Positions 1 to 63,462 of a DNA stretch of 64,000 bases are shown here, piece after piece (position 1 is the stretch's first letter; every line of letters begins with the position of its first letter). Below the pieces are notes generated by a model. That model worked only from the letters and a program-made list of their open reading frames with translations. It made no database searches and was not told the DNA's origin. Location of the stretch: contig JAKZAN010000047.1 in the NCBI GenBank assembly GCA_023053545.1, forward strand, positions 372,001 through 436,000, given 5' to 3'. Source of the stretch: Lepidurus packardi (lineage: Eukaryota > Arthropoda > Branchiopoda > Notostraca > Triopsidae). The translations under genes and the position numbers were made by a program.

Positions 1-582
1 GAAAGGCTGATTAGATTCGGTTTAACAAGAAATGCAGCAGACCTCCGAAACATGGATCCTCCTCGTCATTCCTCATACGCAACTTGCTCATATCAAATCG
101 AACAATTGGTCTCCCAGTTTAACTGTAATCGGGAAACCCAAGAGATCCCAAAAACAGTTAAAAGTATATTCAAACAAAAATGGGTGGAAAATTGGACTAA
201 AAAAACTTCAACATTGTTAAGTTTAGGAATTACTCCTGAATCCTCACCCATTTGCAAATTAAACTTAAACAGACACACAATTTATACAATGATAAAACTT
301 CGCTGTTCACACTATCCTTCCTTGGCTTTTCTCCATCGTATAAAGAAGACTGACAACCCTTTCTGCCCGTGCTACGCTCAAAGTTCTCAAGACCTCAAAC
401 ACATTCTCTACCATTGCAGGTGGCTAAACAAACCAAGAGCAATCCTTCTTCAAAAACTATCGAAAGAAAAAGTTCACTTCAATATGCAAAACATTCTAAC
501 AAACCCGAAGATCTTTGCAGCAGTTGAAAGTTTCATAAACAGCTCCCGCGAAATATACAAACAAGGGAGGGCACTACTCTAG
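1..582 (+). CDS. LINE family A ORF2, C-terminal 193 residues (partial)
   Basis: The reading frame is open from base 1, so the start lies upstream of the window; the in-frame Met at base 52 is internal. It ends at the stop at 580-582. The visible part is the region after the reverse transcriptase. It begins ERLIRFGL, matching ERLVLRHY in family B ORF2 (residues 851-858), and later carries a Cys/His motif of the form C-x-C-x9-H-x4-C (FCPC...H...C). Family B has the same motif with identical spacing (C976, C978, H988, C993). Such a terminal Cys/His domain is usual in R1/Jockey-group ORF2 proteins and is thought to bind nucleic acid. The blocks RWLNKPRAILLQKL and VHFN are also shared. No stop or frameshift interrupts the visible part, so this copy may be young. 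Confidence 0.88.
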   Translation, partial: ERLIRFGLTRNAADLRNMDPPRHSSYATCSYQIEQLVSQFNCNRETQEIPKTVKSIFKQKWVENWTKKTSTLLSLGITPESSPICKLNLNRHTIYTMIKLRCSHYPSLAFLHRIKKTDNPFCPCYAQSSQDLKHILYHCRWLNKPRAILLQKLSKEKVHFNMQNILTNPKIFAAVESFINSSREIYKQGRALL

Positions 583-702
583 TCATTTAGAGGAAAGCCC
601 ATTGGTTTAAAGTTTAAATAGTGATAACATTGTAAAACAGAAAATTGGAAAGAAAGAAAATAAATATCGGCAAAGAGCTTTGCTCACGCTGAGATTAAAT
701 GG
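583..702 (+). other. LINE family A 3'UTR
   Basis: About 120 bp of A-rich non-coding sequence between the ORF2 stop and the poly-A tail. It ends in a stem-loop (668-691) and a short A/T-rich linker. It has no C-rich tract, unlike family B. Confidence 0.8.
668..691 (+). promoter_or_regulatory. 3'-terminal RNA stem-loop of LINE family A
   Basis: An outer 4-bp stem (CGGC 668-671 with GCTG 688-691, one G-U pair) encloses an inner stem (GAGC 675-678 with GCTC 682-685, loop TTT), separated by a small internal loop (AAA/AC). It lies 11 bases before the poly-A tail. A similar two-stem arrangement sits at the same place in family B (58075-58099). In LINEs with stringent 3' recognition, a terminal stem-loop is what the reverse transcriptase binds; that role here is inferred. 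Confidence 0.55.
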
Positions 703-729
703 AAAAAAAAAAAAAAAAAAAAAAAAAAA
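703..729 (+). other. Poly-A tail of LINE family A
   Basis: An uninterrupted run of 27 A, followed at 730 by satellite reading TTCAGTCCGTAAGG. Up to two of the A residues could belong to the satellite monomer (AATTAATT). Confidence 0.9.
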
Positions 730-1195
730 TTCAGTCCGTAAGGAATAACTTCAATTCGTAAGGAAATAATTCAGTCCGTAATGGATTAATTAAGTCCGTA
801 ATGAATTAATTCAGTCCGTAAGGAATTAATAAAATCCGTACGGAATTAATTCAGACCGTAAGGAATTAATTAAGTACGTAAGGAATTAATTAAGTCCGAA
901 AGGAATTAATTAAGTCCGTAAGGAATTAATTCAGTCCGTAAGGATTTAATTCAGTCCGTAAGGTACTAATTCAGTCCGTAAGGAATTAATTCAGTCCGTA
1001 AGGAATTAATTCAGTCCGTAAGGAATTAATTCAGTCCGTAAGGAATTAATTAAGGTATTAATTCAGTCCGTAAGGAATTAATTCAGTCCGTAAGGAATTA
1101 TTTCAGTCCGTAATTAATTAATTCATTCCTTACGGAATTAAATAAGTCCATAACGAATTAATTCAGTCTGTAAGGATTTAATTAAGTCCGTAATG

Positions 1196-1254
1196 AAAAA
1201 AAAAAAAAAATGAAATGATGAAAATGAAATAATGAAAAAAAAAAAAAAAAAAAA
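1196..1254 (+). mobile_element. Poly-A scar in the satellite (probable LINE tail remnant)
   Basis: A 59-bp non-satellite insert: 15 A (1196-1210), a 24-bp A/T/G stretch made of TGAAA/ATG motifs (1211-1234), then 20 A (1235-1254). The satellite resumes with TTCAGTCCGTAAGGAATAAC, the same junction and the same variant monomer that follow the family A tail at 730. Either it is a LINE insertion truncated to almost nothing but tail, or a LINE tail carried along when the downstream satellite block was duplicated by unequal exchange. No coding part remains, and no target duplication can be separated from the satellite. Confidence 0.6.
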
Positions 1255-4083
1255 TTCAGTCCGTAAGGAATAACTTCAATTCGTAAGGAAATAATTCAGT
1301 CCGTAATGGATTAATTAAGTCCGTAATGAATTAATTCAGTCCGTAAGGAATTAATAAAATCCGTAAGGAATTAATTAAGTCCGAAAGGAATTAATTAAGT
1401 CCGTAAGGAATTAATTCAGTCCGTAAGGATTTAATTCAGTCCGTAAGGTATTAATTCAGTCCGTAAGGAATTAATTCAGTCCGTAAGGAATTAATTCAGT
1501 CCGTAAGGAATTAATTCAGTCCGTAAGGAATTAATTCAGTCCGTAAGGAATAAGTTCATTACGTAAGGAATTAATTCAGTCCGTAATCGATTAATTAAGT
1601 CCGAAATGAATTAATTCAGTCCGTATGAAATTAATTCAGTCCGTAAGGAATTAATTAAGGTATTAATTCAGTCCGTAAGGAATTAATTCAGTCCGTAAGG
1701 AATTATTATCAGTCCGTAATTAATTAATTCATTCCTTACGGAATCAATTAAGTCCATAAGGAATTAATTCAGTCTGTAAGGATTTAATTAAGTCCGTAAT
1801 GAATTAATGCAGTCCGTAAGTAATTAATTCAGTCCGTAAGGAATAACTTCAATTCGTAAAGAAATAATTCAGTCCGTAATGGATTAATTAAGTCCGTAAT
1901 GAATTAATTCAGTCCGTAAGGAATTAATAAAATCCGTACGGAATTAATTCAGACCGTAAGGAATTAATTAAGTACGTAAGGAATTAATTAAGTCCGAAAG
2001 GAATTAATTAAGTCCGTAAGGAATTAATTCAGTCCGTAAGGATTTAATTCAGTCCGTAAGGTATTAATTCAGTCCTTAAGGAATTAATTCAGTCCGTAAG
2101 GAATTAATTCAGTCCGTAAGGAATTAATTTAGTCCGTAAGGAATAAGTTCATTACGTAAGGAGTTAATTCAGTCCGTAATCGATTAATTAAGTCCGAAAT
2201 GAATTAATTCAGTCCGTATGAAATTAATTCAGTCCGTAAGGAATTAATTAAGGTATTAATTCAGTCCGTAAGGAATTAATTCAGTCCGTAAGGAATTATT
2301 TCAGTCCGTAATTAATTAATTCATTCCTTACGGAATTAATTAAGTCCATAAGGAATTAATTCAGTCTGTAAGGATTTAATTAAGTCCGTAATGAATTAGT
2401 TCAGTCCGTAAGGAATTAATTCAGTCCGTAAGGAATTAATTCAGTACGTAAGGAATTAATTCAGTCCGTAAGTAATTAATTCAGTCCGTAAGGAATAACT
2501 TCAATTCGTAAGGAAATAATTCAGTCCGTAATGGATTAATTAAGTCCGTAATGAATTAATTCAGTCCGTAAGGAATTAATAAAATCCTTACGGAATTAAT
2601 TCAGACCGTAAGGAATTAATTAAGTACGTAAGGAATTAATTAAGTCCGAAAGGAATTAATTAAGTCCGTAAGGAATTAATTCAGTCCGTAAGGATTTAAT
2701 TCAGTCCGTAATGTATTAATTCAGTCCGTAAGGAATTAATTCAGTCCGTAAGGAATTAATTCAGTCCGTAAGGAATTAATTCAGTCCGTAAGGAATAAGT
2801 TCATTACGTAAGGAATTAATTCAGTCCGTAATCGATTAATTAAGTCCGAAATGAATTAATTCAGTCCGTATGAAATTAATTCAGTCCGTAAGGAATTAAT
2901 TAAGGTATTAATTCAGTCCGTAAGGAATTAATTCAGTCCGTAAGGAATTATTTCAGTCCGTAATGAATTAATTCATTCCTTACAGAAATAATTAAGTCCA
3001 TAAGGAATTAATTCAGTCTGTAAGGATTTAATTAAGTCCGTAATGAATTAATTCAGTCCGTAAGGAATAACTTCAGTACGTAAGGAAATAAATCAGTCCG
3101 TAAGTAATTAATTCAGTCCGTATGAAAATAATTCAGTCCGTAAGGAATTAATTAAGGAATTAATTCAGTCCGTAAGGAATTAATTCAGTCCGTAAGGAAT
3201 TAATTCAGTCCGTAAGGAATTATTTCAGTACGTAAGGAAATAATTTAGTCCGTAAGTAATTAATTCAGTCCGTAAGGAATAACTTCAGTTCGTAAGGAAA
3301 TAATTCAGTCCGTAATGGATTAATTAAGTCCGTAATGAATTAATTCAGTCCGTAAGGAATTAATAAAATCCGTACGGAATTAGTTCAGACCATAAGGAAT
3401 TAATTAAGTACGTAAGGAATTAAGTACGTAAGGAATAAGTCCGAAAGGAATTAATTCAGTCCGTAAGGAATTAATTCAGTCCGTAAGGAACTAATTCAGT
3501 CCGTAAGGAATTAATTCAGTCCGAAAGGATTTAATTCAGTCCGTAAGGTATTAATTCAGTCCGTAAGGAATTAATTCAGTCCGTAAGGAATTAATTCAGT
3601 CCGTAAGGAATTAATTCAGTACGTAACGAATAAGTTCATTACGTAAGGAATTAATTCAGTCCGTAATCGATTAAATCAGTACGTAAGGAATTAATTCAGT
3701 CCGTAAGGAATTATTTCAGTCCTTAATTAATTAATTCATTACTTACGGAATTAATTAAGTCCATAAGGAATTAATTCAGTCCGTAAGGAATTAATTCAGT
3801 TCGTAAGGAATTAATTCTGTCCGTAAGGATTTAATTCAGTCCGTAATGTATTAATTCAGTCCGTAAGGAATTAATTAAGTCCGTAAGGAATTAATTAAGT
3901 CCGTAAGGAATTAATTAAGTCCGTAAGGAATTAATTCAGTCCGTAAGGATTTAATTCAGTCCGTAATATATTAATTCAGTCCGTAAGGAATTAATTCACT
4001 CCGTAAGGAATTAATTCAGTCCGTAAGGAATTAATTCAGCCCGTAAGGAATTAATTCAGTCCGTAATGAATTAATTCAGTCCG

Positions 4084-7000
4084 TAAGGAATTCATTAAGT
4101 CCGTAAGGAATTAATTCAGTCCGTAAGGATTTAATTCAGTCCGTAAGGTATTAATTCAGTCCGTAAGGAATTAATTCAGTCCGTAAGGAATTAATTCAGT
4201 CCGTAAGGAATTAATTCAGTCCGTAAGGAATTAATCCAGTCCGTAAGGAATAAGTTCATTACGTGAGGAATTATTTCAGTCCGTAATCGATTAATTAAGT
4301 CCGAAATGAATTAATTCAGTCCGTGTGAAATTAATTCAGTCCGTATGAAATTAATTCAGTCCGTAAGGAATTAATTAAGGAATTAATTCAGTCCGTAAGG
4401 AATTAATTCAGTCCGTAAGGAATTAATTCAGTCCGTAAGGAATTAATTCAGTCCGTAAGGAATTAATTCAGTCCGTAAGGAATTAATTCAGTCCGTAAGG
4501 AATTAATTTAGTCCGTAAGGAATTAATTAAGTCCGTAAGGAATTAATTAAGTCCGTAAGGAATTAATTCAGTCCGTAAGGATTTAATTCAGTCCGTAAGG
4601 TATTAATTCAGTCCGTAAGGAATAACTTCAGTACGTAAGGAAATAATTCAGTCCGTAAGTAATTAATTCAGTCAGTATGAAATTAATTCAGTCCGTAAGG
4701 AATTAATTAAGGAATTAATTCAGTCCGTAAGGAATTAATTCATTCCGTAAGGAATTAATTCAGTTCGTAAGGAATTAATTCAGAACGTAAGGAATTAATG
4801 CAGTCCGTAAGTAATTAATTCATTCCGTAAGGAATAACTTCAATTCGTAAGGAAATAATTCAGTCCGTAATGGATTAATTAAGTCCGTAATGAATTAATT
4901 CAGTCCGTAAGGAATTAATAAAATCCGTACGGAATTAATTTAGACCGTAAGGAATTAATTAAGTCCGTAATGAATTAACTCAGTCCGTATGAAATTAATT
5001 CAGTCCGTAAAGAATTCATTCAGTCCGTAAGGAATTAATTCCGTAAGAAAGGAATTCAATCAATCCTAAAGAATTAATTCAGTCCGTAAGGAACTAATTC
5101 AGTCCGTAGGGAATTAATTCAGTCCGTAATGAATTAATTCAGTCCGTATGAATTTAATTCAGTCCGTAAGGAATTAATTAAGGAATTAATTAAGTCCGTA
5201 AAGAATTTATTCAGTAAGAAAGGAATTCAATCAATCCTAAAGAATTAATTCAGTCCGTAAGGAAATAATTCAGTCCGTAAGGAATTAATTCAGTCCGTAA
5301 GGAATTAATTCAGTCCGTAAGGAATTAATTCAGTCCGTAAGGAATTAATTCAGTCCGTAAGGAATAATTTCAGTACGTAAGCAATTAATTCAGTCCGTAA
5401 TGGATTAATTAATTCAGTAATGAATTAATTCTGTCCGTATGAAATTAATTCAGTGCGTAATGAATTAATTAAGGAATTAATTCAGTCCGTAAGGAATTAA
5501 TTCAGTCCGTAAGGAATAAGTTCAGTACGTAAGGAATTAATTCAGTCCGTAATGGATTAATTAATTCCGTAATGAATTAATTCAGTCCGTATGAAATTAA
5601 TTCAGCCCGTAAGGAATTAATTAAGGAATTAATTCAGTCCGTAAGGAATTTATTCAGTAAGAAAGGAATTCAATCAATCCTAAAGAATTAATTCAGACCG
5701 TAAGGAACTAATTCAGTCCGTAAGTAATTAATTCAGTCCGTAAGGAATTAATTCAGTCCGTAGGGAATTAATTAAGTCCGTAAGGAATTAATTCAGTCCG
5801 TAATTAATTCATTCATTCCTTACGGAATTAATTAAGTCCATAATGAATTAATTCAGTCCGTAAGGAATTAATTCAGTCCGTAATGAATTAATTCAGTCCG
5901 TAAGGAATTCATTAAGTCCGTAAGGAATTAATTCAGTCCGTAAGGATTTAATTCAGTCCGTAAGGTATTAATTCAGTCCGTAAGGAATTAATTCAGTCCG
6001 TAAGGAATTAATTCAGTCCGTAAGGAATTAATTCAGTCCGTAAGGAATTAATCCAGTCCGTAAGGAATAAGTTCATTACGTGAGGAATTATTTCAGTCCG
6101 TAATCGATTAATTAAGTCCGAAATGAATTAATTCAGTCCGTGTGAAATTAATTCAGTCCGTATGAAATTAATTCAGTCCGTAAGGAATTAATTAAGGAAT
6201 TAATTCAGTCCGTAAGGAATTAATTCAGTCCGTAAGGAATTAATTCAGTCCGTAAGGAATTAATTCAGTCCGTAAGGAATTAATTCAGTCCGTAAGGAAT
6301 TAATTCAGTCCGTAAGGAATTAATTTAGTCCGTAAGGAATTAATTAAGTCCGTAAGGAATTAATTAAGTCCGTAAGGAATTAATTCAGTCCGTAAGGATT
6401 TAATTCAGTCCGTAAGGTATTAATTCAGTCCGTAAGGAATAACTTCAGTACGTAAGGAAATAATTCAGTCCGTAAGTAATTAATTCAGTCAGTATGAAAT
6501 TAATTCAGTCCGTAAGGAATTAATTAAGGAATTAATTCAGTCCGTAAGGAATTAATTCATTCCGTAAGGAATTAATTCAGTTCGTAAGGAATTAATTCAG
6601 AACGTAAGGAATTAATGCAGTCCGTAAGTAATTAATTCATTCCGTAAGGAATAACTTCAATTCGTAAGGAAATAATTCAGTCCGTAATGGATTAATTAAG
6701 TCCGTAATGAATTAATTCAGTCCGTAAGGAATTAATAAAATCCGTACGGAATTAATTTAGACCGTAAGGAATTAATTAAGTCCGTAATGAATTAACTCAG
6801 TCCGTATGAAATTAATTCAGTCCGTAAAGAATTCATTCAGTCCGTAAGGAATTAATTCCGTAAGAAAGGAATTCAATCAATCCTAAAGAATTAATTCAGT
6901 CCGTAAGGAACTAATTCAGTCCGTAGGGAATTAATTCAGTCCGTAATGAATTAATTCAGTCCGTATGAATTTAATTCAGTCCGTAAGGAATTAATTAAGG

Positions 7001-7717
7001 AATTAATTAAGTCCGTAAAGAATTTATTCAGTAAGAAAGGAATTCAATCAATCCTAAAGAATTAATTCAGTCCGTAAGGAAATAATTCAGTCCGTAAGGA
7101 ATTAATTCAGTCCGTAAGGAATTAATTCAGTCCGTAAGGAATTAATTCAGTCCGTAAGGAATTAATTCAGTCCGTAAGGAATAATTTCAGTACGTAAGCA
7201 ATTAATTCAGTCCGTAATGGATTAATTAATTCAGTAATGAATTAATTCTGTCCGTATGAAATTAATTCAGTGCGTAATGAATTAATTAAGGAATTAATTC
7301 AGTCCGTAAGGAATTAATTCAGTCCGTAAGGAATAAGTTCAGTACGTAAGGAATTAATTCAGTCCGTAATGGATTAATTAATTCCGTAATGAATTAATTC
7401 AGTCCGTATGAAATTAATTCAGCCCGTAAGGAATTAATTAAGGAATTAATTCAGTCCGTAAGGAATTTATTCAGTAAGAAAGGAATTCAATCAATCCTAA
7501 AGAATTAATTCAGACCGTAAGGAACTAATTCAGTCCGTAAGTAATTAATTCAGTCCGTAAGGAATTAATTCAGTCCGTAGGGAATTAATTAAGTCCGTAA
7601 GGAATTAATTCAGTCCGTAATTAATTCATTCATTCCTTACGGAATTAATTAAGTCCATAATGAATTAATTCAGTCCGTAAGGAATTAATTCAGTCCGTAA
7701 TGAATTAATTCAGTCCG
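4084..7717 (+). repeat. 1,817-bp higher-order repeat, two tandem copies
   Basis: The marker GGAATTCATTAAGTCCG starts its block at 4084, 5901 and 7718, that is, at intervals of exactly 1,817 bp. The order of variant monomers between markers (GTGAGG, GTGTGAAATT, GTCAGTATG, the EcoRI variant, inverted unit) is the same in both copies. A third copy starts at 7718 and soon diverges (for example CCTGTG in place of CGTGTG). Confidence 0.85.
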
Positions 7718-17301: not shown

Positions 17302-17306
17302 GTAAG
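17302..17306 (+). other. Paralogous empty site of the Gypsy insertion
   Basis: The satellite around 17200-17310 carries the same rare markers (AAAATCACTACGG, TCCGCAAGG) as the left flank of the Gypsy element at 21118-21245. It runs uninterrupted through GTAAG into GAACTAATTCAG, which is the right flank at 25495. It therefore preserves the pre-insertion arrangement with a single GTAAG. Confidence 0.8.
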
Positions 17307-21245: not shown

Positions 21246-21466
21246 TGTTATGAAGCAGAGTCAGTAGTATAGTAGTCGCAAAGTAAAGGGGTAAGCCAAG
21301 TAGAGTGCAGGGAAGTCAATATGAGAGAAAGTGAGGCAAGCAGTAAACTGATAGTACGTAGGTTGAAGGTTCAATGCTGACTGTGTGTATTGACAGGGTG
21401 CACCGGCTCCATACTGTCTAACAGAGCCATCTGTTACAGGGTACAACTTATAATGGAAACATAACA
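21246..21466 (-). repeat. 3' LTR of the Gypsy element
   Basis: A 221-bp terminal repeat starting TGTTATG and ending CATAACA. It is nearly identical to the repeat at 25274-25494 (about two differences, both transitions). It is the 3' LTR because the coding region is on the minus strand. Confidence 0.93.
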
Positions 21467-21480
21467 AATTCCTCCCCCGT
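21467..21480 (-). other. Polypurine tract of the Gypsy element
   Basis: On the minus strand a G/A-rich run (ACGGGGGAGGAATT) lies immediately upstream of the 3' LTR, where plus-strand DNA synthesis is primed in LTR elements. Confidence 0.7.
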
Positions 21481-21535
21481 AACTGAAAAACCCCCAAATG
21501 ATACACCCACGACCGTTTACAAAACAACACATCAT

Positions 21536-24500
21536 TTAAGTGTAATCTAGCTTCTTCGAGCTGTTCTTCAATCGTTCCGAACGTCTGGGTTCCACCGGAT
21601 TGTTAGGCAACCGGATGCGGGGAACGGGCGCCTCTGGTGACTTCTGCTGCGACTGAGGCTCAACTGGAACCGCAGGCGGACCATCAAACACCTTCTCAGG
21701 GGCCGCCACCTGGTCTGCTTGAGGAGCAACCTGTTCAAACAAAGGCTTATTAGTATGCGGAGCTGAAGGCTGGACGGCTTGGGGAAATGGTGGACGGAAC
21801 ACTTCGACGACCGCTTCGTCCAGCTCGTTTCCTTCGTCGCTTCTTCTTATCTGGTCCCAATGGCGCTTCACAAGCGAGTCTCCTACTCGGACTTCGTAAA
21901 GGTACTTTCCGAGACGCCGGGCAATCATGGCCTGTTGCCACTTGGGGTAACCTTTGCGGAAATCCCGAACCATGACCGGGTCTCCTTGGGAATATTCGGC
22001 GCTAGACGTAGGAGACGGAACGTCGAAAGCAGTGGGTTTGCTTGGCAGAAGTAGGTCCAGCTTGGTTCTGGGGGAATAGCCCAACAAAACTTCTGCTGGA
22101 CATTTCCCCGTGGAAGCGTGCTGTGTTGTGCGATAACCGAAGAGAAATCTTGACAGTTTCGCTTGTAGTGACAAGGAATCTTGGCTAGCTTTGCGTAGGC
22201 TGGTTTTTAGGGATTGGACGAAACGTTCGGCTAGCCCATTCGTCTGGGGATGGTAAGGCGCCCCCATCAAATGGCTAATCCCATTCTGCTTGACAAAAAC
22301 CGCCATTTCCTCTGACGTAAACTGAGGCCCGTTATCGGTCACGAGCTCGGAAGGCAGCCCAAAACGCGCAAAAATGGAGCGCAAGATTTCAATCGTCGCT
22401 TCCGTTGTAGTAGTGTGGACCAGAAAGGCTTCTGGCCATTTGGTGTAAGCGTCCATGAGCAAAAATATCATTTTTCCCTCTATAGGGCCCGCAAAGTCTG
22501 CGTGTAAACGTTGCCATGGTCCTTTGGGAGTTGGCCAAGCAGCATTTTTGAGTTGGTTTGGGGATCGCACTGCTACCTTGCATTGAGGACATTTTCCAAC
22601 CAACCTAGTTATCTCTTGATCCATTGCAGGCCACCAAAATTTACTCCGTGCCATGGATTTGGTGCGTGCAATACCAGTATGTCCTTCGTGCAATAAGGTA
22701 AGGACATCGTTACGTAACGTTGAAGGAACTACGACACGACGTCCCCAGAGGATGGCGTCGTTTTCCAGCGACAACTCAAAACGCCACATGTGAAACGGTT
22801 TTAATTCAACAGGAATCTTACCGGTCTTCCAACCACTCTTAACGAAACCTTGAACTTGGCCGAGTAGTGGATCCTGCTTTTGTTCTCGCAATAATTTTTC
22901 GAACGTAAGGGGTAAGCCCTCCAAAATTCCTAGGTTACAACAACTGGCAGCCATGGCCGCATAATCCACGGAGGTGTAGGGTAATGGTGATCTTGAGAGG
23001 GTATCCGCATTTGCGTTCTCTTCCGACCGACGAAATTCCATTTCGTACGTGTAGGCCGTCAGTTTTAAAGCCCAACGTTGCATACGTGCTGCAGCAATTG
23101 CGGAAACTCCAGATTTGGGACCCAAGATCGAGAGCAACGGTTTATGGTCCGTGACCAGTGTAAAACTCCTCCCGAACAAATAGTCGTGGAATCGCGAAAC
23201 CCCAAAAATGATGGCAAGAGCTTCGCGCTCGATTTGGGAGTAGTTTCTCTCAGCTTTCGACAGTGTTTTGGAGGCATACGCAACAGGACGCTCGTCTCCA
23301 TTTGGGAACCGATGTGACAAGACAGCAGCGACTCCTACGGACGACGCGTCACACTCTAAGCGAATCGGCAAAGTCGGGTCATAGTGACACAGAACCTGCT
23401 GGGAGCTGAGATTTTGCTTCAGTCTTTTCCAAGCTTCTTCTTGAGGATGTCCCCAATGAAAACTACAACCTTGTCGGGTCAGTGCGGTCAATGGTTCCGC
23501 CAGTGTGGCTAAGTTTTTTATAAACTTCCCATAATACTGAACCAAGCCCAGGAAGGATTTGATGTCTTTTGCATTCTTGGGCTTGGGCGCTTCTGAAACG
23601 GCACGTACTTTCGACGGGTCTGTTTTCAATCCGTCTGCAGAAACAATGATCCCCAGATATGGTACTTCAGTCCGTCCGAAAAAGCATTTGGACAAATCTA
23701 ATCTAACATTGGCCTCTTGCAGCCGTTTAAGAACTTCCTCTGCCCGTTTTTTGTGTTCTTCCTTCGTAGTCCCGGATACAAGTATGTCATCCAGGTAGCA
23801 TTTAACAAAGGGCAGGTCACGAAGTAATTCATCCATGAATTTTTGGAACTTCGCTGGAGCAGAAGCAATTCCGAATGGTAATCTGCAGTATTGATATAAA
23901 CCCCACTGGGTGTTGATTGTTGTCAACGGTTGGGATTCAGTGGCAAGGGAAAGCTGTAAATAAGCTTGCGAAAGATCCAACTTACTAAAGAAGGCTCCGC
24001 CTTCTAAAGTAGCGAAAAGATCCGCTGGTTTTGGTAGAGGATACTGGTCGATTAAGAGTTCGGGGTTTACGGACATTTTGTAATCTCCGCAGATACGAAA
24101 ATGACCATTAGGTTCTGAGTGGCCCATTTTGGATAAAAAAACAGAGCGGAGAGACTCAAGCCTTTCGCTATAATCTTCATTGTCCGATTCTTCTTGAAGA
24201 TAATGAGATTTAGCCCTGTTATCGTTTTGACTCTTCTGATTACCAGGGAAACTAATCCTTGATTCTGATGGCAACGTTGACCGACTGCGACAGACCGCCG
24301 CAAAATGTCCCTTCTTATGGCAGGCTTTGCAGACTTGGTTTAAGGCAGGACAGTTCTTGCTGTTAGCTTTATGAGCACTGTTGCCACACCGGAAACAAGA
24401 TCCCGGGGATCCAGGCCTACTCTTCTGTAGAGCGTTAACTGCGCCCGCTAAAGACATTTGCTGGGCTTTCGACTTAGCGTTTTCAAGAGACGCAGCCAAT

Positions 24501-25048
24501 TGAAATGCCCTGTTCAACGTTAAATCCGATTCTGAGAGAAGCTTGCCTTGGACATTTACGTCATGAAGGCCTACAACGAAAGCATCTCGCAACGCGGACT
24601 CCAGGAAACTGCCAAAATTGCAGTCGCGAGACAACATGCGTAGCTCGGCAAGAAAATCCTTGAGCGATTCCCCTTGCTTCTGAGTTCTCTTATAAAAATT
24701 GAAACGTTCTGCTATTTCTATTGTCGATTCGACGAAATGTGAATTTAAGATATCGCAAATCTCTTCGAAAGATTTCGAGGTTGGCTCAGCAGGTGAACAT
24801 AACTTCCAAAGCGTTTGACAAGCGAAGTCGCCAACCAATGGAAAAAAACAAGCCCTCTTTTGCTCAGGGTCAACAATGCCGTTGGCGATATAAAACTGGC
24901 AGAGTCTGCTTAAGTATATACGCCAGTTGCTATCTTGTACATAAGGCTCGATACTTCCCAAAACCCGACCAGCAGAAACCGCAGACGAAGCTGGGTTGGT
25001 TTTTGCAGCTGCGACGGATGTAGCCATGACGTCAACAGGTAACGGCAA
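21536..25048 (-). pseudogene. Gypsy gag-pol region (fossil)
   Basis: An 1170-codon region on the minus strand. Its N-terminal part resembles a mag-type Gag, followed by two nucleocapsid zinc knuckles (starting CFRCG and CKACHKKGH). Then come a reverse transcriptase with YLDD, RNase H (LECDASS, VTDHKPLLSIL), and an integrase with an HHCC-type N-terminus (HEGHTG...CPQC) and a core containing LVTDNGPQF and HPQTNGLAERF. The C-terminus is proline-rich and basic. In the family this is made as one polyprotein that packages and integrates the element's own RNA/DNA. The region is shorter than usual for mag-like elements and the element is treated as broken. Family placement is sure; the exact clade is probable. 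Confidence 0.88.
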
Positions 25049-25247
25049 GTCGCGAAAACGAAAAGGGAATGGAACAAAACAAAAAGAACGAGCTCACCCG
25101 AGATGAACTGGCACGGTGAACGGCGCAGTTGAAGTTGCCTCCGGCAAGGTAGGGCAAGGAACTCAGGTGACTGCGTAGTTCGATCAGCCTCGTCAAAGCA
25201 AATCCACATGCAAAAGTCCCCAGATGACAACCGACACTGTCAAGAAA

Positions 25248-25266
25248 AATCCCATCCTCGTCGCCA
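25248..25266 (-). other. Primer binding site (tRNA-Ser)
   Basis: Seven bases inside the 5' LTR, the minus strand begins TGGCGACGAGG and continues for about 19 bases complementary to the 3' end of arthropod tRNA-Ser (GCT), including the CCA. The match is from memory of that tRNA. The tRNA-Ser primer is known for mag-type elements. Confidence 0.75.
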
Positions 25267-25273
25267 AAATACT

Positions 25274-25494
25274 TGTTATGAAGCAGAGTCAGCAGTATAG
25301 TAGTCGCAAAGTAAAGGGGTAAGCCAAGTAGAGTGCAGGGAAGTCAATATGAGAGAAAGTGAGGCAAGCAGTAAACTGATAGTACGTAAGTTGAAGGTTC
25401 AATGCTGACTGTGTGTATTGACAGGGTGCACCGGCTCCATACTGTCTAACAGAGCCATCTGTTACAGGGTACAACTTATAATGGAAACATAACA
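25274..25494 (-). repeat. 5' LTR of the Gypsy element
   Basis: A 221-bp repeat pairing with 21246-21466. Its small open frames are shadows of the LTR and do not look coding. Confidence 0.93.
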
Positions 25495-50140: not shown

Positions 50141-53100
50141 CCGTAAGGAATTAATTCAGTCCGTAAGGAATTAATTCAGTCCGTAATAAATTAATTAAGT
50201 CCGTAATGAATTAATTCAGTCCGTAATGAATTAATTCAGTCCGTATGAAATTAATTCAGTCCGTAAGGAATTATTTCAGTCCGTAATTAATTAATTCATT
50301 CCTTACGGAATTAATTAAGTCCATAAGGAATTAATTCAGTCTGTAAGGATTTAATTAAGTCCGTAATGAATTAATTCAGTCCGTAAGGAATTAATTCAGT
50401 CCGTAAGGAATTAATTCAGTCCGTAAGGAATTAATTCAGTCCGTAAGGAATTAATTCAGTCCGTAAGGAATTAATTCAGTCCGTAAGGAATTATTTCTGT
50501 CCGTAATTAATTAATTCATTCCTTACGGAATTAATTAAGTCCATAAGGAATTAATTCAGTCTGTAAGGATTTAATTACGTCCGTAATGAATTAATTCAGT
50601 CCGAAATCGATTAATTAAGTCCGTAATGAATTAATTCAGTCCGTATGAAATTAATTCAGTCCGTAAGGAATTAATTAAGGAATTAATTCAGTCCGTAAGG
50701 AATTAATTTAGTCCGTAAGGAATTATTTCAGTCCGTAATTAATTAATTCATTCCTTACGGAATTAATTAAGTCCATAAGGAATTAACTCAGTCTGTAAGG
50801 ATTTAATTAAGTCCGTAATGAATTAATTCAGTCTGTAAGGAATTAATTCAGTCCGTAAGGAATTAATTCAATCCGTAATTTCAGTCCGTAAGGAATTAAT
50901 TCCGTTCGTAAGGTATTAATTCAGTCCGTAAGAAATTAATTCAGTCCGTAAGGAATTAATTCAGTCTGTAAGGAATTAATTAAGTCCGTAAGAAATAAGT
51001 TCAGTACGTAAGGAATTAATTCAGTCCGTAAGGAATAAGTTCAATACGTAAGGAATTAATTCAGTCCGTAATAAATTAATTAAGTCCGTAATGAATTAAT
51101 TCAGTCCGTATGAAATTAATTCAGTCCGTAAGGAATTCATTCAGTCCGTAAGGAATTAATTCAGTCCATAAGGAATTATTTCAGTCCGTAATTAATTAAT
51201 TCATTCCTTACGGAATTAATTAAGTCCATAAGGAATTAATTCAGTCTTTAAGGATTTAATCAAGTCCGTAATGAATTAATTCAGTCCGAAATCGATTAAT
51301 TAAGTCCGTAAGGAATTAATTCAGTCCGTATGAAATTAATTCAGTCCGTAAGGAATTAATTAAGGAATTAATTCAGTCCGTAAGGAATTAATTCAGTCCG
51401 TAAGGAATTAATTCAGTCCGTAAGGAATTATTTCAGTCCGTAATTAATTAATTCATTCCTTACGGAATTAATTAAGTCCATAAGGAATTAATTCAGTCTG
51501 TAAGGATTTAATTAAGTCCGTAATGAATTAATTCAGTCCGTAAGGAATTAATTCAGTCCGTAAGGAATTAATTCAGTCCGTAAGGAATTAATTCAGTCCG
51601 TAAGGAATTAATTCAGTCCGTAAGGAATTAATTCAGTCCGTAAGGAATTATTTCTGTCCGTAATTAATTAATTCATTCCTTACGGAATTAATTAAGTCCA
51701 TAAGGAATTAATTCAGTCTGTAAGGATTTAATTACGTCCGTAATGAATTAATTCAGTCCGAAATCGATTAATTAAGTCCGTAATTAATTAATTCAGTCCG
51801 TATGAAATTAATTCAGTCCGTAAGGAATTATTTCAGTTCGTAATTAATTAATTCATTCCTTACGGAATTAATTAAGTCCATAAGGAATTAATTCAGTCTG
51901 TAAGGATTTAATTACGCCCGTAATGAATTAATTCAGTCCGAAATCGATTAATTAAGTCCGTAATGAATTAATTCAGTCCGTATGAAATTAATTCAGTCCG
52001 TAAGGAATTAATTAAGGAATTAATTCAGTCCGTAAGGAATTATTTCTGTCCGTAATTAATTAATTCATTCCTTACGGAATTAATTAAGTCCATAAGGAAT
52101 TAATTCAGTCTGTAAGGATTTAATTACGTCCGTAATGAATTAATTCAGTCCGAAATCGATTAATTAAGTCCGTAATGAATTAATTCAGTCCGTATGAAAT
52201 TAATTCAGTCCGTAAGGTATTAATTAAGGAATTAATTCAGTCCGTAAGGAATTAATTCAGTCCGTAAGGAATTATTTCAGTCCGTAATTAATTAATTCAT
52301 TCCTTACGGAATTAATTAAGTCCATAAGGAATTAACTCAGTCTGTAAGGATTTAATTAAGTCCGTAATGAATTAATTCAGTCTGTAAGGAATTAATTCAG
52401 TCCGTAAGGAATTAATTCAATCCGTAAGGAATTAATTCAGTCCGTAAGGAATTAATTCAGTTCGTAAGGTATTAATTCAGTCCGTAAGGAATTAATTCAG
52501 TCCGTAAGGAATTAATTCAGTCCGTAAGGAATTAATTAAGTCCGTAAGGAATAAGTTCAGTACGTAAGGAATTAATTCAGTCCGTAATAAATTAATTAAG
52601 TCCGTAATGAATTAATTCAGTCCGTAAGGAATTAATTCAGTAAGAAAGGAATTCAATCAATTCTAAAGAATTAATTCAGTCCGTAAGGAACTAATTCAGT
52701 CCGTAAGGAATTAATTCAGTCCGTAAGGAATTAATTCAGTCCGTAAGGAATTAATTAAGTCCGTAAGGAATTAATTCAGTCCGTAAGGAATTATTTCAGT
52801 CCGTAATTAATTCATTCATTCCTTACGGAATTAATTAAGTCCATAATGAATTAATTCAGTCCGTAAGGAATTAATAAAATCGGTACGGAATTAATTCAGA
52901 CCGTAATAGTCCGTAAGGAATTAATTCAGTCCGTAAGGAATTAATGCAGTCAGTAAGGAATTAATTCAGTCCGTAAGGAATTAATTCAGTCCGTAAGGAA
53001 TTAATTCAGTCCGTAAGGATTTAATTCAGTCCGTAAGGTATTAATTCAGTCCGTAAGGAATTAATTCAGTCCGTAAGGAATTAATTCAGTCCGTAGGGAA

Positions 53101-53224
53101 TTAATTCAGTCCGTAAGGAATAAGTTCAGTACGTAAGGAATTAATTCAGTCCGTAATAAATTAATTAAGTCCGTAATGAATTAATTCAGTCCGTATGAAA
53201 TTAATTAAGTACGTAAGGAATTAA

Positions 53225-53234
53225 TTAAGTCCGT
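53225..53234 (+). repeat. Target-site duplication of LINE family B, left
   Basis: TTAAGTCCGT occurs here and again at 58138-58147 after the poly-A tail. It may extend by two A at the tail side. Confidence 0.8.
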
Positions 53235-53363
53235 TGATTTTGTTCCCAAGTGTAGTTCGGTGCTTTACGCACCTTTGTTGACTGTTTTCATAACGTTTAG
53301 TTACCGCTGTGTGTATGAACGAGGACCTTTAAGTGACTGTTTAGGGCCTAGCCCTGTGACGAA
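53235..53363 (+). promoter_or_regulatory. LINE family B 5'UTR with two hairpins
   Basis: A 129-bp leader, probably holding the internal promoter as in other full-length LINEs (inference). Two perfect 5-bp hairpins are visible: GGTGC/GCACC with loop TTTAC (53259-53273), and AGGGC/GCCCT with loop CTA (53343-53355), the latter ending 8 bases before the ORF1 start codon. The whole leader is repeated at 61960-62088. Confidence 0.7.
53315..53332 (+). CDS. Upstream mini-ORF, 5 codons
   Basis: ATG AAC GAG GAC CTT TAA (MNEDL) lies in the leader, 31 bases before the ORF1 start and in another frame. Such a uORF could lower or time ORF1 translation. This is only a possibility. Confidence 0.3.
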   Translation: MNEDL

Positions 53364-54734
53364 ATGTTAAGGACTCCGGAAAACTCGCCCGTAAAAGGGG
53401 GAATCCGTTTTCCTCAAGCCGGCCCGTCCCGCGCTCTCGAAGAAATAGAAATAGACTCGCCCAATCCAACCGTCACACTTCAACCTCAGGTGAAATGTCA
53501 ATCGTGTGGAGACCTCTTTCAAAAAGACAAGCCTGCGGCTAAAAACTGCAAACCGTGTCGGGAAAAAAAACTAAACCCAGTTCAAGCGCAGAAACGTCCT
53601 ATGCTATCCCCTTCAGACGACCTAGCGTTTCGAAAAAGGTCCTTTTCAATCGATGACCCTACGCAAACGTCTACGTTGGATTACATCGTATCAACGCTTA
53701 GGTCATTGAAAGATAGTAACGACCTTCTGAATCAGGAAATTTTGGCACTTAAAGCGGAAGTTATTGGACTTCGCAAAGACCTTGAAGAAGAACGCGGGAA
53801 ACCTTCCTTGAAGCCTACTGTTAGAGATAATCAACCAAATCAATGCCAAGCCCCCTCGTCCTCTGCTCAAACAAGCACTTGGACACAAGTTGTGAGGAGG
53901 AGAGCTAGACCACCACCCAAGGTGTCAACTACCTCAATTGCCACCCCTGCCATGCAAGAATCAGGTGAGCAAGACGAAGATGGCTTAACGCTATTTATCC
54001 AACAGGAAGATGAGACCAAACGAAACGCGGTCATTCCGAGGAAAGATCTCCTGAAGGTAATCGAGGACGACTTATCTAAAGCGTACCCAACAGCACCGAA
54101 ACCTGTCCTTGTCGGGAAAACCCGAACGAACAGACTCGCCCTCACGTACAAAAGCCAAGAGGAGAAAACCACTTCCGAATCCATCCTCGAATCGGCGGTT
54201 TTGCCAAGTTTGGGACCTGTTAAAATGGTTAAGAGACAACCAAACTTGGTGGTGGTTATCCACCAGCTTCCAAAGGACCAAAGCCTGCCCGAAATTTGTG
54301 AACACATCTCGGACAAAAACTCAAACTTGGGAATCATCTTTCAAGCGGATCAGGCAAAGTGGCTAAACCCCGATTTAAAAAAAGCGTATGGGTCTATCAA
54401 GTTCACCTGTAATTCAGCCGAGGAGAAGAAAAGTTTGTTGGAAGTTGGGGCCATCTTTGCGTTTAACCGCATAGTCCAAGTGGAAAACGTAAAACACCCT
54501 CAAATCCTTCAATGCTTCAACTGCCAGGCCTATGGCCATATGTCAGCGTCTTGCCGTGAAAAGACACCAACCTGCGGGAAATGTTCAAAGAATCACGACA
54601 CAAGGCAATGCACGGAGGTAACGAAGAAATGTGCGAACTGCAAAGACAAACACTACGCATTTGACCCCGCTTGTCCCACTCGATTGAAGGAGATAGACGC
54701 AAAGGGCAAGAAGTCCGCGTCAAGGAGCAAATAG
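53364..54734 (+). CDS. LINE family B ORF1, Gag-like RNA-binding protein
   Basis: A 456-residue protein, expected to coat the element RNA and form the ribonucleoprotein. The start is the first in-frame Met after a stop at 53349-53351. Near the N-terminus, residues 45-65 hold a C-x2-C...C-x2-C pair (C45, C48, C62, C65) like a small zinc ribbon, which is unusual for this protein type. Residues about 105-145 look like a coiled coil (leucine-rich, charged). Residues about 210-380 resemble the RRM-like Gag domain of Jockey-group ORF1. The C-terminus has three zinc knuckles: C384-C387-H392-C397, C404-C407-H411-C416, C423-C426-H430-C437, then a basic tail. ORF1 ends in TAG three bases before ORF2, in the same frame. 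Confidence 0.92.
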   Translation: MLRTPENSPVKGGIRFPQAGPSRALEEIEIDSPNPTVTLQPQVKCQSCGDLFQKDKPAAKNCKPCREKKLNPVQAQKRPMLSPSDDLAFRKRSFSIDDPTQTSTLDYIVSTLRSLKDSNDLLNQEILALKAEVIGLRKDLEEERGKPSLKPTVRDNQPNQCQAPSSSAQTSTWTQVVRRRARPPPKVSTTSIATPAMQESGEQDEDGLTLFIQQEDETKRNAVIPRKDLLKVIEDDLSKAYPTAPKPVLVGKTRTNRLALTYKSQEEKTTSESILESAVLPSLGPVKMVKRQPNLVVVIHQLPKDQSLPEICEHISDKNSNLGIIFQADQAKWLNPDLKKAYGSIKFTCNSAEEKKSLLEVGAIFAFNRIVQVENVKHPQILQCFNCQAYGHMSASCREKTPTCGKCSKNHDTRQCTEVTKKCANCKDKHYAFDPACPTRLKEIDAKGKKSASRSK

Positions 54735-54740
54735 ACAATG
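54732..54740 (+). promoter_or_regulatory. In-frame ORF1/ORF2 junction TAG-ACA-ATG
   Basis: ORF1 and ORF2 share one reading frame, separated only by TAG and one ACA codon before the ORF2 ATG. Downstream translation could use termination-reinitiation, as shown for the SART1 LINE, or stop read-through. The sequence alone cannot tell which. The same junction is at 63457-63465. Confidence 0.7.
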
Positions 54741-57700
54741 GGATTGGTACGATTGATTGTGCAGAACATTCGTAAAAGCACATCTCAACTTACTGAAGTT
54801 GCTAGAGAGGCAAACAGTGAAGATGTAACCTTGGTTATTTTATTGGAGCCGCCACAGAACTACACTCAATCACGTATCATGGGATTTGACGTTATTACTC
54901 CGTCTCTTGCTTATGAAGGAGTGATGCTGCTCCGTAAGCCAGACAGCCGTTTCTATGTCCTTGAAATAAAGGAACTATACGCGAAAATCAGGTTGACAAA
55001 CCCAGGAGGACGAGCGATATCCATACTTGCAATATATAGAAGGCACACAGCTAACACCGCGTCGCTTCTTGAAGAAGCCTGGGGAAATTACAACCAACAC
55101 GACCCTGTGATAGTAACAGGAGATTTCAATGCCCATCACTGGCGGTGGGAGGATAAAGCTTCAGATATACCGGGAATACAACTGTACGACTTTGCCACAG
55201 AACATCACTTGGACTTGATTAATGAATGGAATGTCCCAACATTTCACAACGAGCGTGGGCACAAATCGACTTTAGACCTCACGTGGTGTTCCCCGCAATT
55301 AATCAAGACCACAGATTGGCACGTCCTGGATGAAGCAGAGTATTACAATGAATCAGATCACAAAGCCATAGTAATTTCCCTTAATCTTTTGCAAACCCAC
55401 ACGGCAAGGACAACATGGTGCTACAGCAGGGTCAATTGGAAAGAACTCGCCTCTAACGTACGGGGTGAGGTACTGAAGGCATCACCTAAGTTCGCAGATC
55501 TTTCGAGCCCTATCGCTTTGGACATAGCCGTTGACAGGCTTACAACAATCATCCAGACGGAAATGACGAAAAGTATCCCCAAAAAATCCGCAAATAACAG
55601 GAACAATCCTTGGTGGAATAGGGAGCTCCAAATCCTTCGTAAACAAATAGCGGCTGTGCTCAGACAGTACCGTACACACGGGGGCTCTGAGAGGGAAAAG
55701 TTATGGAAAGAAACCAGGAATGCCTATAGAGCGAAAACCAGGGAATTCAGGAATACGTATTGGTCTGAACAACTTAATACACCAGACAGCAGGGTTATTT
55801 GGAACCTAGACCGGCAAATGAGGGTCTACAATAATAACAAGCTCGAATTCCTGAGACGAAATGATGGAACGCCTTTCCCAGATGCGATTAAGAAATTAAA
55901 TTTTGTGGCGACACACCTGCTGGACGGGGCCCCGGTAAATTCGCAAGAAGATTCCCTACGACGCCGTTCTTCCCTGTACAAAGCTCGGAAAACCAGAGGT
56001 TCTTTTTATGAAGCCCCTTTCACCAGGGAGGAAATTTCTGAGATAATCGAGGGACTCCAACCACGTAAAGCTGCTGGAGTGGATGAAATCCAAGCAATCA
56101 TCATTAAATCCCTATGGAGTGTTATTGGCCCAACAGTGGTTAGCTTGTATAATGCCTCTCTGGCCCTGGAATATCACCCCAAAGCATGGAAGACTGCTAA
56201 AGTTATTACGCTCCCTAAGCCGGGGAAGCAGAGCTACACGTCAATCAAGAGTTTTCGACCAATCTCCCTGCTACCGGTATTGGGGAAAATACTAGAAAAG
56301 GCAATAGCAAATCGGTTAAAGCTGTTTCTAGAAGATAACGATAAGTTGTCGGATATGCAATGGGGTTTTAGACCAGGGCGATCAACAGTGGATGCCATGG
56401 TGAATTTCAGCGATGCGATTTTGGATAGCTTCGATAAAGGAAAAGTCCTTTCAGCCTTACTGTTGGACATTTCCGGAGCATTTGACAATGTAAACCACGA
56501 AGTGTTAGTTGAAGAGCTTTGGGCGCTGAAAGTTCCATCACAAGTGACCAGATGGATTAAGAGTTTTCTCGAGAAACGGAGAGCATATGTGGTTTTTGGT
56601 GAAGAAAAAAGCGATGTCGTCTCGATTATTAAGGGAGTTCCGCAAGGCTCTCCCCTATCACCGATATTATTCTTGATGTACATTGATGGAGCGTTGGGAT
56701 GCATAAAACGGAAGAAGATCGACATGCAAGCTTTCGCGGATGACCTGTTGATTTTTACATCGAGCACCTCCAGCGAGAAAAATGTCAAGCTTCTGAGCAA
56801 CAACTTGGCTGCGCTCGAAAAATGGGCTAAGAAGCACCGACTACAGTTTGCGAAAGAAAAGACGGAATTAATTCACTTTTCCAAAAAGCACCAACCAGAA
56901 GCCACACCCCTCGTTTGGGACGGTACGATAGTCCATTCTAAGGATGCGGTCAGGTACCTCGGTCTAGTTTATGACAATAGTCTCACATGGACACACCATG
57001 TTAACCGTCTGGTAGTCCAATGCAATTTAACCCTGCAAAGGATACACAAAGTGATGAGATTTTCAAGAGCTGTCACTTGCCGTCAGGTCCGTACTCTTTT
57101 TCAGACGACGGTCCTCTCAAAACTAAGCTACGCTTTCCCAGCCTGGTTCAACATCTCTTTGGCTAAGCTACGACCCATTATCCAACTGTATAGAAAGGGC
57201 CTGTTAGCAATAACAGGAGCCCTCAAAACAACCCCAACCGTTGCTTTGGAAATAGAATCGGGCCTACCACCATTCGATTTGTACCTCGAGAGATTAGTGC
57301 TCCGCCACTACGCTTCAAGATACTGGGACAAATGGCCCGTTTCCGAAGAGGTACCCAGGCACAGACGATACACGTCCTGTTTGGAGAGGGCAAGAGTACT
57401 TGCAGCCGTCGTCTGGAAGTCAAGCCCAGATTCCATAAAGGTAGCTCGTGGTTGGATAGAAGAAGCAACGATGAGTCAATGGAAGGAACGTTGGAATAAT
57501 TCTCAGAGCCCGTTACAGGATCTGACCCATGGACCATCTCGTCAAGGAATAGTGCACGTCCACCTTCCCAGGACAATCATCTCAAAGATGATTCAAGTGA
57601 GAACCACACACTTCCCAACCAGGAGCTACCTCCAACGAATCCAAAAATCCGACTCGGACCTATGTCCATGCCAGGATAGAACTAGACATTACCTACCGCA

Positions 57701-57872
57701 TCTACTGTTCCACTGTCGTCGACTCAACAAGCAACGTGCCCAACTACTCCAGAAGCTAAACAAGTTAAAAATCCATTTTAACGCAAAAGAATTGCTAACC
57801 AGCCCTAAAGCTTTCAACACACTTACTATTTTTCTACACGAAGCGAATCAAAGTTGCATAAGCGAGTTCTAG
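54738..57872 (+). CDS. LINE family B ORF2, APE endonuclease and reverse transcriptase
   Basis: A 1044-residue protein that would nick the target and copy the element RNA into the nick. Endonuclease (about 1-215): N10, E37 in LLEPP, TGDFNAHH with D129 and N131, and SDH (206-208), the usual APE-type catalytic set. Reverse transcriptase (about 480-750): LLLDISGAFD with D577, GVPQGS at 633-638, and FADD at 666-669 with the catalytic D668-D669. Residues 820-850 (LLAITGALKTTPTVALEIE) match the thumb/connection region of R1/I/Tad-group elements. No RNase H follows. A C-x-C-x9-H-x4-C motif closes the protein (C976, C978, H988, C993). The start ATG has A at -3 and G at +4. All key residues seen are present, so this copy may be active. 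Confidence 0.95.
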   Translation: MGLVRLIVQNIRKSTSQLTEVAREANSEDVTLVILLEPPQNYTQSRIMGFDVITPSLAYEGVMLLRKPDSRFYVLEIKELYAKIRLTNPGGRAISILAIYRRHTANTASLLEEAWGNYNQHDPVIVTGDFNAHHWRWEDKASDIPGIQLYDFATEHHLDLINEWNVPTFHNERGHKSTLDLTWCSPQLIKTTDWHVLDEAEYYNESDHKAIVISLNLLQTHTARTTWCYSRVNWKELASNVRGEVLKASPKFADLSSPIALDIAVDRLTTIIQTEMTKSIPKKSANNRNNPWWNRELQILRKQIAAVLRQYRTHGGSEREKLWKETRNAYRAKTREFRNTYWSEQLNTPDSRVIWNLDRQMRVYNNNKLEFLRRNDGTPFPDAIKKLNFVATHLLDGAPVNSQEDSLRRRSSLYKARKTRGSFYEAPFTREEISEIIEGLQPRKAAGVDEIQAIIIKSLWSVIGPTVVSLYNASLALEYHPKAWKTAKVITLPKPGKQSYTSIKSFRPISLLPVLGKILEKAIANRLKLFLEDNDKLSDMQWGFRPGRSTVDAMVNFSDAILDSFDKGKVLSALLLDISGAFDNVNHEVLVEELWALKVPSQVTRWIKSFLEKRRAYVVFGEEKSDVVSIIKGVPQGSPLSPILFLMYIDGALGCIKRKKIDMQAFADDLLIFTSSTSSEKNVKLLSNNLAALEKWAKKHRLQFAKEKTELIHFSKKHQPEATPLVWDGTIVHSKDAVRYLGLVYDNSLTWTHHVNRLVVQCNLTLQRIHKVMRFSRAVTCRQVRTLFQTTVLSKLSYAFPAWFNISLAKLRPIIQLYRKGLLAITGALKTTPTVALEIESGLPPFDLYLERLVLRHYASRYWDKWPVSEEVPRHRRYTSCLERARVLAAVVWKSSPDSIKVARGWIEEATMSQWKERWNNSQSPLQDLTHGPSRQGIVHVHLPRTIISKMIQVRTTHFPTRSYLQRIQKSDSDLCPCQDRTRHYLPHLLFHCRRLNKQRAQLLQKLNKLKIHFNAKELLTSPKAFNTLTIFLHEANQSCISEF

Positions 57873-57893
57873 TTAGCAGAGTTTTTGCCCTGC

Positions 57894-57972
57894 TGTCTCC
57901 CCCCCTCCACCCTCCTTGTCATGTGTCCCCCCCTCCACCCCCCTTTGTGTCCTATCCCCCTCTCCACCCTTT
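57894..57972 (+). repeat. Pyrimidine-rich tract in the 3'UTR
   Basis: Runs of C broken by TCCACC and short T/G spacers, with three imperfect tandem units of CCCCTCCACC. Strong strand asymmetry of this kind can form triplex or i-motif structures. Its role is unknown, and it is absent from family A. Confidence 0.6.
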
Positions 57973-57987
57973 TGTTCTATGTGCTAT

Positions 57988-58022
57988 GTTAAAGGGTAAT
58001 GCAGAAGCATCACCCCTTTAAC
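57988..58022 (+). promoter_or_regulatory. 3'UTR hairpin of LINE family B
   Basis: The arms 57988-58002 and 58007-58022 pair (GTTAAAGGG with CCCTTTAAC as the outer nine pairs), with one bulged C, one mismatch and an AGAA loop. About 14 base pairs in all, the strongest hairpin in the 3'UTR. Confidence 0.6.
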
Positions 58023-58074
58023 AATTTTTTTAAAATTATTGACAATGTACAGAAGGCATATTTAAAAAAGCTTG

Positions 58075-58099
58075 AGGCAATAGGCGCGAGCCTACGCCT
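58075..58099 (+). promoter_or_regulatory. 3'-terminal RNA stem-loop of LINE family B
   Basis: An outer stem AGGC (58075-58078) with GCCT (58096-58099) encloses an inner stem TAGGC (58081-58085) with GCCTA (58090-58094), capped by GCGA, a GNRA-type tetraloop. A small internal loop (AA/C) separates the stems. It lies nine bases before the poly-A tail. The layout matches 668-691 in family A. A role in template recognition by the reverse transcriptase is inferred. Confidence 0.6.
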
Positions 58100-58103
58100 G
58101 TTA

Positions 58104-58108
<5 letters not shown>

Positions 58109-58137
<29 letters not shown>
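58109..58137 (+). other. Poly-A tail of LINE family B
   Basis: 29 uninterrupted A, followed by TTAAGTCCGTAAGG, the duplicated target and satellite. Confidence 0.92.
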
Positions 58138-58139
<2 letters not shown>

Positions 58140-58147
58140 AAGTCCGT
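58138..58147 (+). repeat. Target-site duplication of LINE family B, right
   Basis: TTAAGTCCGT, the second copy of the left-side duplication at 53225-53234. Confidence 0.8.
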
Positions 58148-63459: not shown

Positions 63460-63462
63460 ACA

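Follow-up and report, generated by a model that had tools for sequence, protein, structure and literature searches.

Phase-locked LINE junctions in a 20-bp satellite of Lepidurus packardi: a shared insertion preference, probably of a generic kind

In a 64,000-nucleotide stretch of the Lepidurus packardi genome (assembly GCA_023053545.1, contig JAKZAN010000047.1, positions 372,001 to 436,000; hereafter the window), long interspersed nuclear elements (LINEs) of two families, A and B, end in poly-A tails that join a 20-bp satellite at the same base of its monomer. A sequence-only reading of the window took these junctions as the mark of a LINE lineage specialised on the satellite. We find that the phase preference is real and common to well-diverged families, with 13 of 18 forward events at one base in families A, B, C, D, F and I, and that it is not the property of a satellite-specific lineage. 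The shared phase very probably comes from a generic preference for nicking at TT/AA together with amplification of the satellite, and not from a satellite-only lifestyle. Entry of LINEs into a satellite at a preferred nick-like site is already known from Cuscuta. The features of the window that are needed below are these:

1 to 702, plus strand: LINE family A, 3′ end of open reading frame (ORF) 2 (1-582, from the ORF) and 3′ untranslated region (UTR); the rest of the element lies upstream of the window
703 to 729, plus strand: family A poly-A tail
730 to 740, plus strand: family A target-site duplication, 3′ copy, TTCAGTCCGTA; the 5′ copy is beyond the window, where AATTAATTCAGTCCGTA flanks the element 5′
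730 to 21245, plus strand: 20-bp satellite (AATTCAGTCCGTAAGGAATT) with higher-order structure, first stretch
1196 to 1254, plus strand: poly-A scar, sharing the higher-order repeat position of the family A junction
25495 to 53234, plus strand: 20-bp satellite, second stretch
53225 to 53234, plus strand: family B target-site duplication, 5′ copy, TTAAGTCCGT
53235 to 58108, plus strand: LINE family B, 5′-truncated within the 5′ UTR; three copies at other loci have a longer shared 5′ stretch
53364 to 54734, plus strand: family B ORF1, with one CCHC zinc knuckle match below cutoff
54738 to 57872, plus strand: family B ORF2, with endonuclease and reverse transcriptase
58109 to 58137, plus strand: family B poly-A tail
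58138 to 58147, plus strand: family B target-site duplication, 3′ copy, TTAAGTCCGT, a clean duplication with 53225-53234
58138 to 61959, plus strand: 20-bp satellite, third stretch
61960 to 64000, plus strand: second family B copy, a duplicate of the first including its satellite flank (52625-55275 is identical at an offset of 8725, to the window end)

The poly-A is followed by TTCAGTCCGT at 729 (family A) and 1254 (the scar) and by TTAAGTCCGT at 58137 (family B), which bears out the earlier observation that both tails and the scar run into TT(C/A)AGTCCGT in one orientation. The scar had also been counted as a junction in its own right, and here we differ: an identical stretch of 111 bases follows both 729 and 1254 (its first 100 bases are present three times in the window), and contig C40 holds a like pair, 526 bases apart where the window's are 525 apart, with a family A copy whose 5′ junction matches that of the window's copy. 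Since the scar shares the higher-order position of the A junction and the second B copy is a duplicate, only two independent junctions are present in the window. In the flanking contig AATTCAGTCCGTA precedes the 5′ end of family A and TTCAGTCCGTA follows its tail, forming a target-site duplication around a full element of 4882 bases (C36:367848-372729) with ORFs of 463 and 1053 amino acids. Families A and B are 40% identical over 1044 ORF2 positions and 39% over 452 ORF1 positions; for the ORF2 C-terminus, where about 46% had been given, we found 34% over 166 residues.

Target-site duplications in the satellite are approximately 10-13 bases long (10-15 overall) and place the first nick at GAATT/AATT, an L1-like TT/AA site within an 8-bp palindrome. 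Primers ending in TT number five per consensus monomer, three of them bottom-strand and two top-strand, and TT is followed by AA only at the palindromic centre. With one TT/AA centre per monomer most insertions should fall at one phase, and a first-nick site of so generic a type would make recognition of the satellite unnecessary. The previous estimate of 1 in 40 for a chance agreement does not hold up, as it spreads insertions over 20 phases and two orientations when the monomer has only these five primer sites and the one centre. If phases are taken as uniform, the agreement among forward events does lie far beyond chance (p ~8e-14 for the named phase), and to that extent the earlier claim stands; we dropped the uniform null as it ignores site chemistry.

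To see where families A and B insert genome-wide, their 3′ ends were searched, giving 18 family A and 40 family B matches. One A row (L026, 81% identity, no shared 3′ end) and the 21 divergent B rows after L045 were left out, and copies with common flanks were collapsed to 13 A and 12 B events, 25 in all. Treating every junction as its own insertion was rejected, most being duplicates with the same 5′ junctions or 3′ flanks. Family A has two events in this satellite, four in a 10-bp satellite (ACTGGTTTAA; one at the border with another satellite), two in (TA)n and five in non-tandem DNA, while family B has four in this satellite, two in a second 20-bp satellite, one in (TA)n and five in non-tandem DNA. 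Overall 6 of the 25 events are in this satellite and 19 are outside it (11 of 13 for A, 8 of 12 for B), 10 of these in non-tandem DNA, a distribution at odds with a satellite-specialised niche and one that the sequence-only reading had itself named as evidence to the contrary. A spread over all phases and both orientations, which it had named as well, is not seen for A and B (6 of 6 events alike) and is seen for orientation in sister families. Tandem Repeats Finder covered 0-80 of 600 bases in the ten non-tandem 3′ flanks, one of which (L036) has an AT-rich simple stretch 5′ of the element, and 570-600 of 600 in the eight satellite flanks scanned. Two of the events at other tandem repeats (L023 and L044) lack the element 3′ end and record repeat neighbours, not poly-A junctions; leaving them out, the satellite share is 6 of 23 (p 0.002).

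Outside this satellite five duplications were readable (L015, L025, L031 and L036 in non-tandem DNA, L024 at a satellite border), and all five permit a TT-ending primer. The L031 duplication is imperfect, with one extra C, and As next to the poly-A blur each nick position by a few bases; the 5′ ends of L010, L014, L017, L021 and L022 lay beyond the short stretches fetched, leaving their duplications unread. The family A copy on C132 (L009, L121) has the 10-bp satellite oppositely oriented on its two sides and no clear duplication, which may reflect an inversion or an insertion that was rearranged. Three B copies from separate loci (L090, L098 and L099) have sequence in common upstream of the start of the window copies, and the full family B element is therefore longer than the window copy.

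Related families were found using anchored pattern searches (poly-A, then the satellite core, in each orientation) and 18 stretches of 321-871 bases at junctions. The forward pattern hit 38 places; after omission by eye of C1:2842432 (a related satellite) and C3:4940846 (a single core) and exclusion of two scars, 34 places collapsed to 17 events, and an 18th (L043) came from the family B DNA search. The reverse pattern hit 12 places, from which four non-satellite matches on C4 (two), C5 and C6 were omitted by eye, leaving eight places and five events. These counts are minima, since a match requires ten As and an unbroken core (of the ten satellite B copies the patterns missed one, L043). In each group one or a few places were read directly and the others were grouped by pattern text; families were assigned by eye from their tails, and family I, counted as two events (L107 and L110), could be one.

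Nine or more further related families (C to K) enter the satellite, making at least eleven with A and B. Best tblastn identity to A or B ORF2 was 41-55% in 16 of the 18 junction stretches; L101 had no tblastn match to either ORF2 and belongs to family D by its DNA, and L104 is a more distant LINE (25% to A over 76 residues). The 13 forward events at the A/B phase comprise two of A, four of B, one of C, three of D, one of F and two of I, and the five off phase belong to E, G, H, J and L104. Five further events, of F, G, H, J and K, are reversed. Families F, G, H and J therefore occur both ways, and a fixed orientation is no rule of the group as a whole. The reverse events of G and K use the mirror TT/AA site, A|TTCCTTACGG. 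In the forward events of G and H (L105 and L109) the monomer variant differs at the usual centre and the junction is at another T-ending position; judging from the presumed original monomer, these monomers seem to lack the usual centre. By coordinates, 5 of the 17 closest family D rows (33 in all), 2 of the 8 closest H rows (of 15) and 2 of the 26 closest G rows (of 40) are satellite-adjacent, and two further G flanks read directly were not satellite.

These observations fit a mechanism in which A and B would be two members of a larger group of poly-A LINEs, comprising at least A to K, whose insertion relies on target-primed reverse transcription and an apurinic/apyrimidinic (AP) type endonuclease. 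The enzyme would prefer to nick after TT and before AA, and each consensus monomer presents one such centre in the palindrome GAATT/AATTC. A bottom-strand nick there would leave a TT-ending primer able to pair with the poly-A tail, and top-strand cleavage 10-13 bases off would yield the (AA)TT(C/A)AGTCCGT(A) duplication. The elements would build up in several AT-rich tandem repeats, this satellite among them, presumably under weak selection, and amplification of the satellite would then multiply the insertions along with their junctions.

Several results weigh against so simple an account. The satellite totals approximately 6.7 Mb, or 6.2% of the 108.6-Mb assembly when scaled from the window density of TTCAGTCCGT, and against this estimate A and B together are enriched about fourfold in it (6 of 25 events, p 0.004), a figure that takes no account of purifying selection elsewhere or of satellite missing from the assembly. 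By family the enrichment is seen for B (4 of 12, p 0.005) more than for A (2 of 13, p 0.19). Orientation is biased, 18 forward to 5 reverse (two-sided p 0.011; 17 to 5, p 0.017, without L043, known from the DNA search only), and for A and B alone it is 6 to 0 (p 0.031), where a palindromic site alone predicts no bias. Forward events also favour one of the three TT sites (13 of 18, p 0.0009 versus one third), and therefore the nicking rule must include the AA side. In the five copies with a readable duplication outside this satellite, the nick is not always TT/AA: the bases after it are AA in two and GT, GG and AC in one each. Family J at L117 duplicates GAATTCATTGAGTC, with a nick that is not after TT, L104 (A|TAAGTCC) does not fit TT/AA, and a clear duplication was sought in L112, L045 and L009 and none was found. 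What generic nicking leaves over is the orientation bias, an excess of TTAAG monomers and the modest enrichment.

It is possible, and we hold this tentatively, that generic TT/AA nicking is joined by a mild extra preference, either for T/A-richer flanks (TTAATT/AATT) or for one satellite strand; this would refine the preferred explanation, and our confidences in the two overlap. TTAAG monomers make up 5 of 8 (or 9) exact junctions compared with 14.9% of the two exact monomer classes genome-wide (p 0.003-0.005), and this excess and the orientation bias are what such a preference would produce. Against it, the numbers are small, both tests were chosen post hoc, and without A and B the orientation count is 12 to 5 (p 0.14). 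A bolder version seems to us rather unlikely: that the A to K group is genuinely, if mildly, biased towards this satellite and one of its strands, over and above TT/AA nicking, and stands at a stage between a free-ranging LINE and a specialist while the satellite amplifies LINE-bearing units. The 18 to 5 orientation, the TTAAG excess and the enrichment of B are compatible with such an intermediate stage.

Full specialisation, in which the endonuclease would recognise the 20-bp monomer itself and fix the orientation of insertion, in the manner of TRAS and SART on telomeric repeats, we regard as very improbable. The uniformity of the six A/B events in phase and orientation, the phase common to most forward events and the fourfold enrichment are what it would predict. 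A site-specific LINE keeps nearly all its copies in one target at a fixed base and orientation; the six satellite events of A and B agree in base and orientation and are only about a quarter of the events of these families, and across the families found five of 18 forward events are off phase and five others reversed. The 19 events elsewhere, ten of them in non-tandem DNA, largely refute it, and the two orientations of sister families and the scarcity of satellite among the closest G rows count further against it. Improbable to at least the same degree is a phase inherited from one or a few old insertions that amplification of the satellite and gene conversion multiplied, with divergence afterwards. 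Junctions that are evident copies abound (L027-L030, L037-L040, family D on C79, family I on C102), but collapsing them leaves 13 forward events at the phase; these belong to six families whose tails differ, and they lie in several monomer variants (TTCAG, TTAAG, TTCCG, TGCAG). Copies A1, A2, B1 and B3 differ in their 5′ ends while their duplications match, and an equal phase across different LINE families is impossible from one insertion.

Generic nicking with satellite amplification thus remains our preferred reading, and it carries a caution: fixed-phase LINE junctions in a satellite are easily mistaken for target specificity. Here a monomer with a single palindromic TT/AA site would come close to mimicking specialisation, and amplification of the satellite inflates the junction count. 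With one satellite and at least eleven related families, this genome is a natural test of LINE endonuclease preference versus satellite turnover.

The best new lead of our analysis is a covarying hairpin at the 3′ end of the elements, located in the window from the alignment of families A to K:

668 to 691, plus strand: conserved 3′ hairpin, family A
58075 to 58099, plus strand: conserved 3′ hairpin, family B

The hairpin is a two-part stem in the last bases before the poly-A of all eleven families, with 94.9% of 99 cells paired. The alignment was sequence-based with one sequence per family, and the structure was drawn by eye and then obtained likewise from RNAalifold. Seven of nine pairs have changed on both sides (as high in 2 of 500 shuffles), there are 18 double-change cells versus 5.5 in shuffles (0 of 500), and the covariation score is 0.59 versus 0.28 (0 of 500). 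The count of further pair types was not above shuffles (174 of 500), and the outermost pair is broken in 4 of the 11 families. Versions of the stem slid along the alignment were only 20-44% paired. The hairpin may be a signal recognised by the reverse transcriptase; for SART1Bm, recognition of the 3′ UTR is described and a stem-loop there is mentioned (PMC7265360).

The family B ORF2 matches Pfam families PF14529, PF03372 and PF00078 (AP endonuclease and reverse transcriptase), and with its poly-A tail and target-site duplication the element is an AP-endonuclease LINE of the kind that inserts by target-primed reverse transcription. No RNase H family was found in ORF2, and no L1 ORF1 family in ORF1, in Pfam at E 0.001, and the zf-CCHC match in ORF1 scores 19.7 bits (cutoff 20.8). 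An ORF2 lacking RNase H together with zinc knuckles in ORF1 is characteristic of the R1 clade, and is true of Jockey-type elements too. For the endonuclease region TRAS1 was the sole PDB match at E up to 1 (E 5e-8), and for the whole ORF2 the best PDB matches include L1 ORF2 proteins over the reverse transcriptase part (E 1.7e-21); neither ranking is a tree.

Mammalian L1 makes its first nick at TT/AA, primes from poly-A, uses variable targets and leaves target-site duplications. A and B have the variable targets and the duplications and probably share the nicking and priming, and unlike mammalian L1 the A to K group carries the conserved hairpin before the poly-A. Waldo is said to be an R1-clade LINE in AC repeats, a simple tandem repeat. 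The closest parallel we found is in Cuscuta europaea (PMC8091179), where 91% of the L1-CS elements accompany the satellite CUS-TR24 (monomer 389 bp). They enter it at two favoured positions of the monomer, which are similar to the L1 site TTTTAA, and often with a single orientation; these are heterogeneous LINEs of one plant L1 lineage, and segmental duplication followed. On that account it is the same kind of event as seen here, with heterogeneous LINEs at a preferred L1-nick-like monomer site and later duplication, in stronger form, since A and B have only 6 of 25 events in a satellite whose monomer is 20 bp. TRAS1 and SART1 are reported to be sequence-specific specialists of telomeric repeats (PMC2868851, PMC7265360). 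As far as those accounts go, A and B are like them in the AP endonuclease, in using one base of a short tandem repeat (TRAS1) and in the poly-A tail (SART1), and unlike them in inserting in many sequences. A search of open-licence papers found nothing on this satellite or these LINEs.

Duplication of insertions along with the satellite is seen directly. A single 5′ junction is common to the family B copies L027-L030, two on C36 and one each on C40 and C4, and L037-L040 have one 3′ flank in common. Inside the satellite, junctions of family D (C79) and family I (C102) recur at 4-7 kb spacing, and on C79, C102, C81 and C137 some LINE junctions repeat at approximately 3-9 kb, as if the LINE had joined an amplified higher-order unit. 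The second 20-bp satellite (AATTCATGAATTACTGACTT; L033, L035, L044 and C1:2842432) is like the first over AATTAAGTC(C/A)GTAA and may be related to it. Many copies of the first satellite lie close to the end of contig C1 (C1:13957344-14003443 of 14048370), a placement that suggests a chromosome end or the neighbourhood of a centromere. Between the first and second satellite stretches of the window, at 21246-25494 on the minus strand, a long terminal repeat (LTR) retrotransposon sits in the satellite with a 5-bp duplication (GTAAG), LTRs 99.1% identical over 221 bases and a single ORF with gag, reverse transcriptase, RNase H and integrase families.

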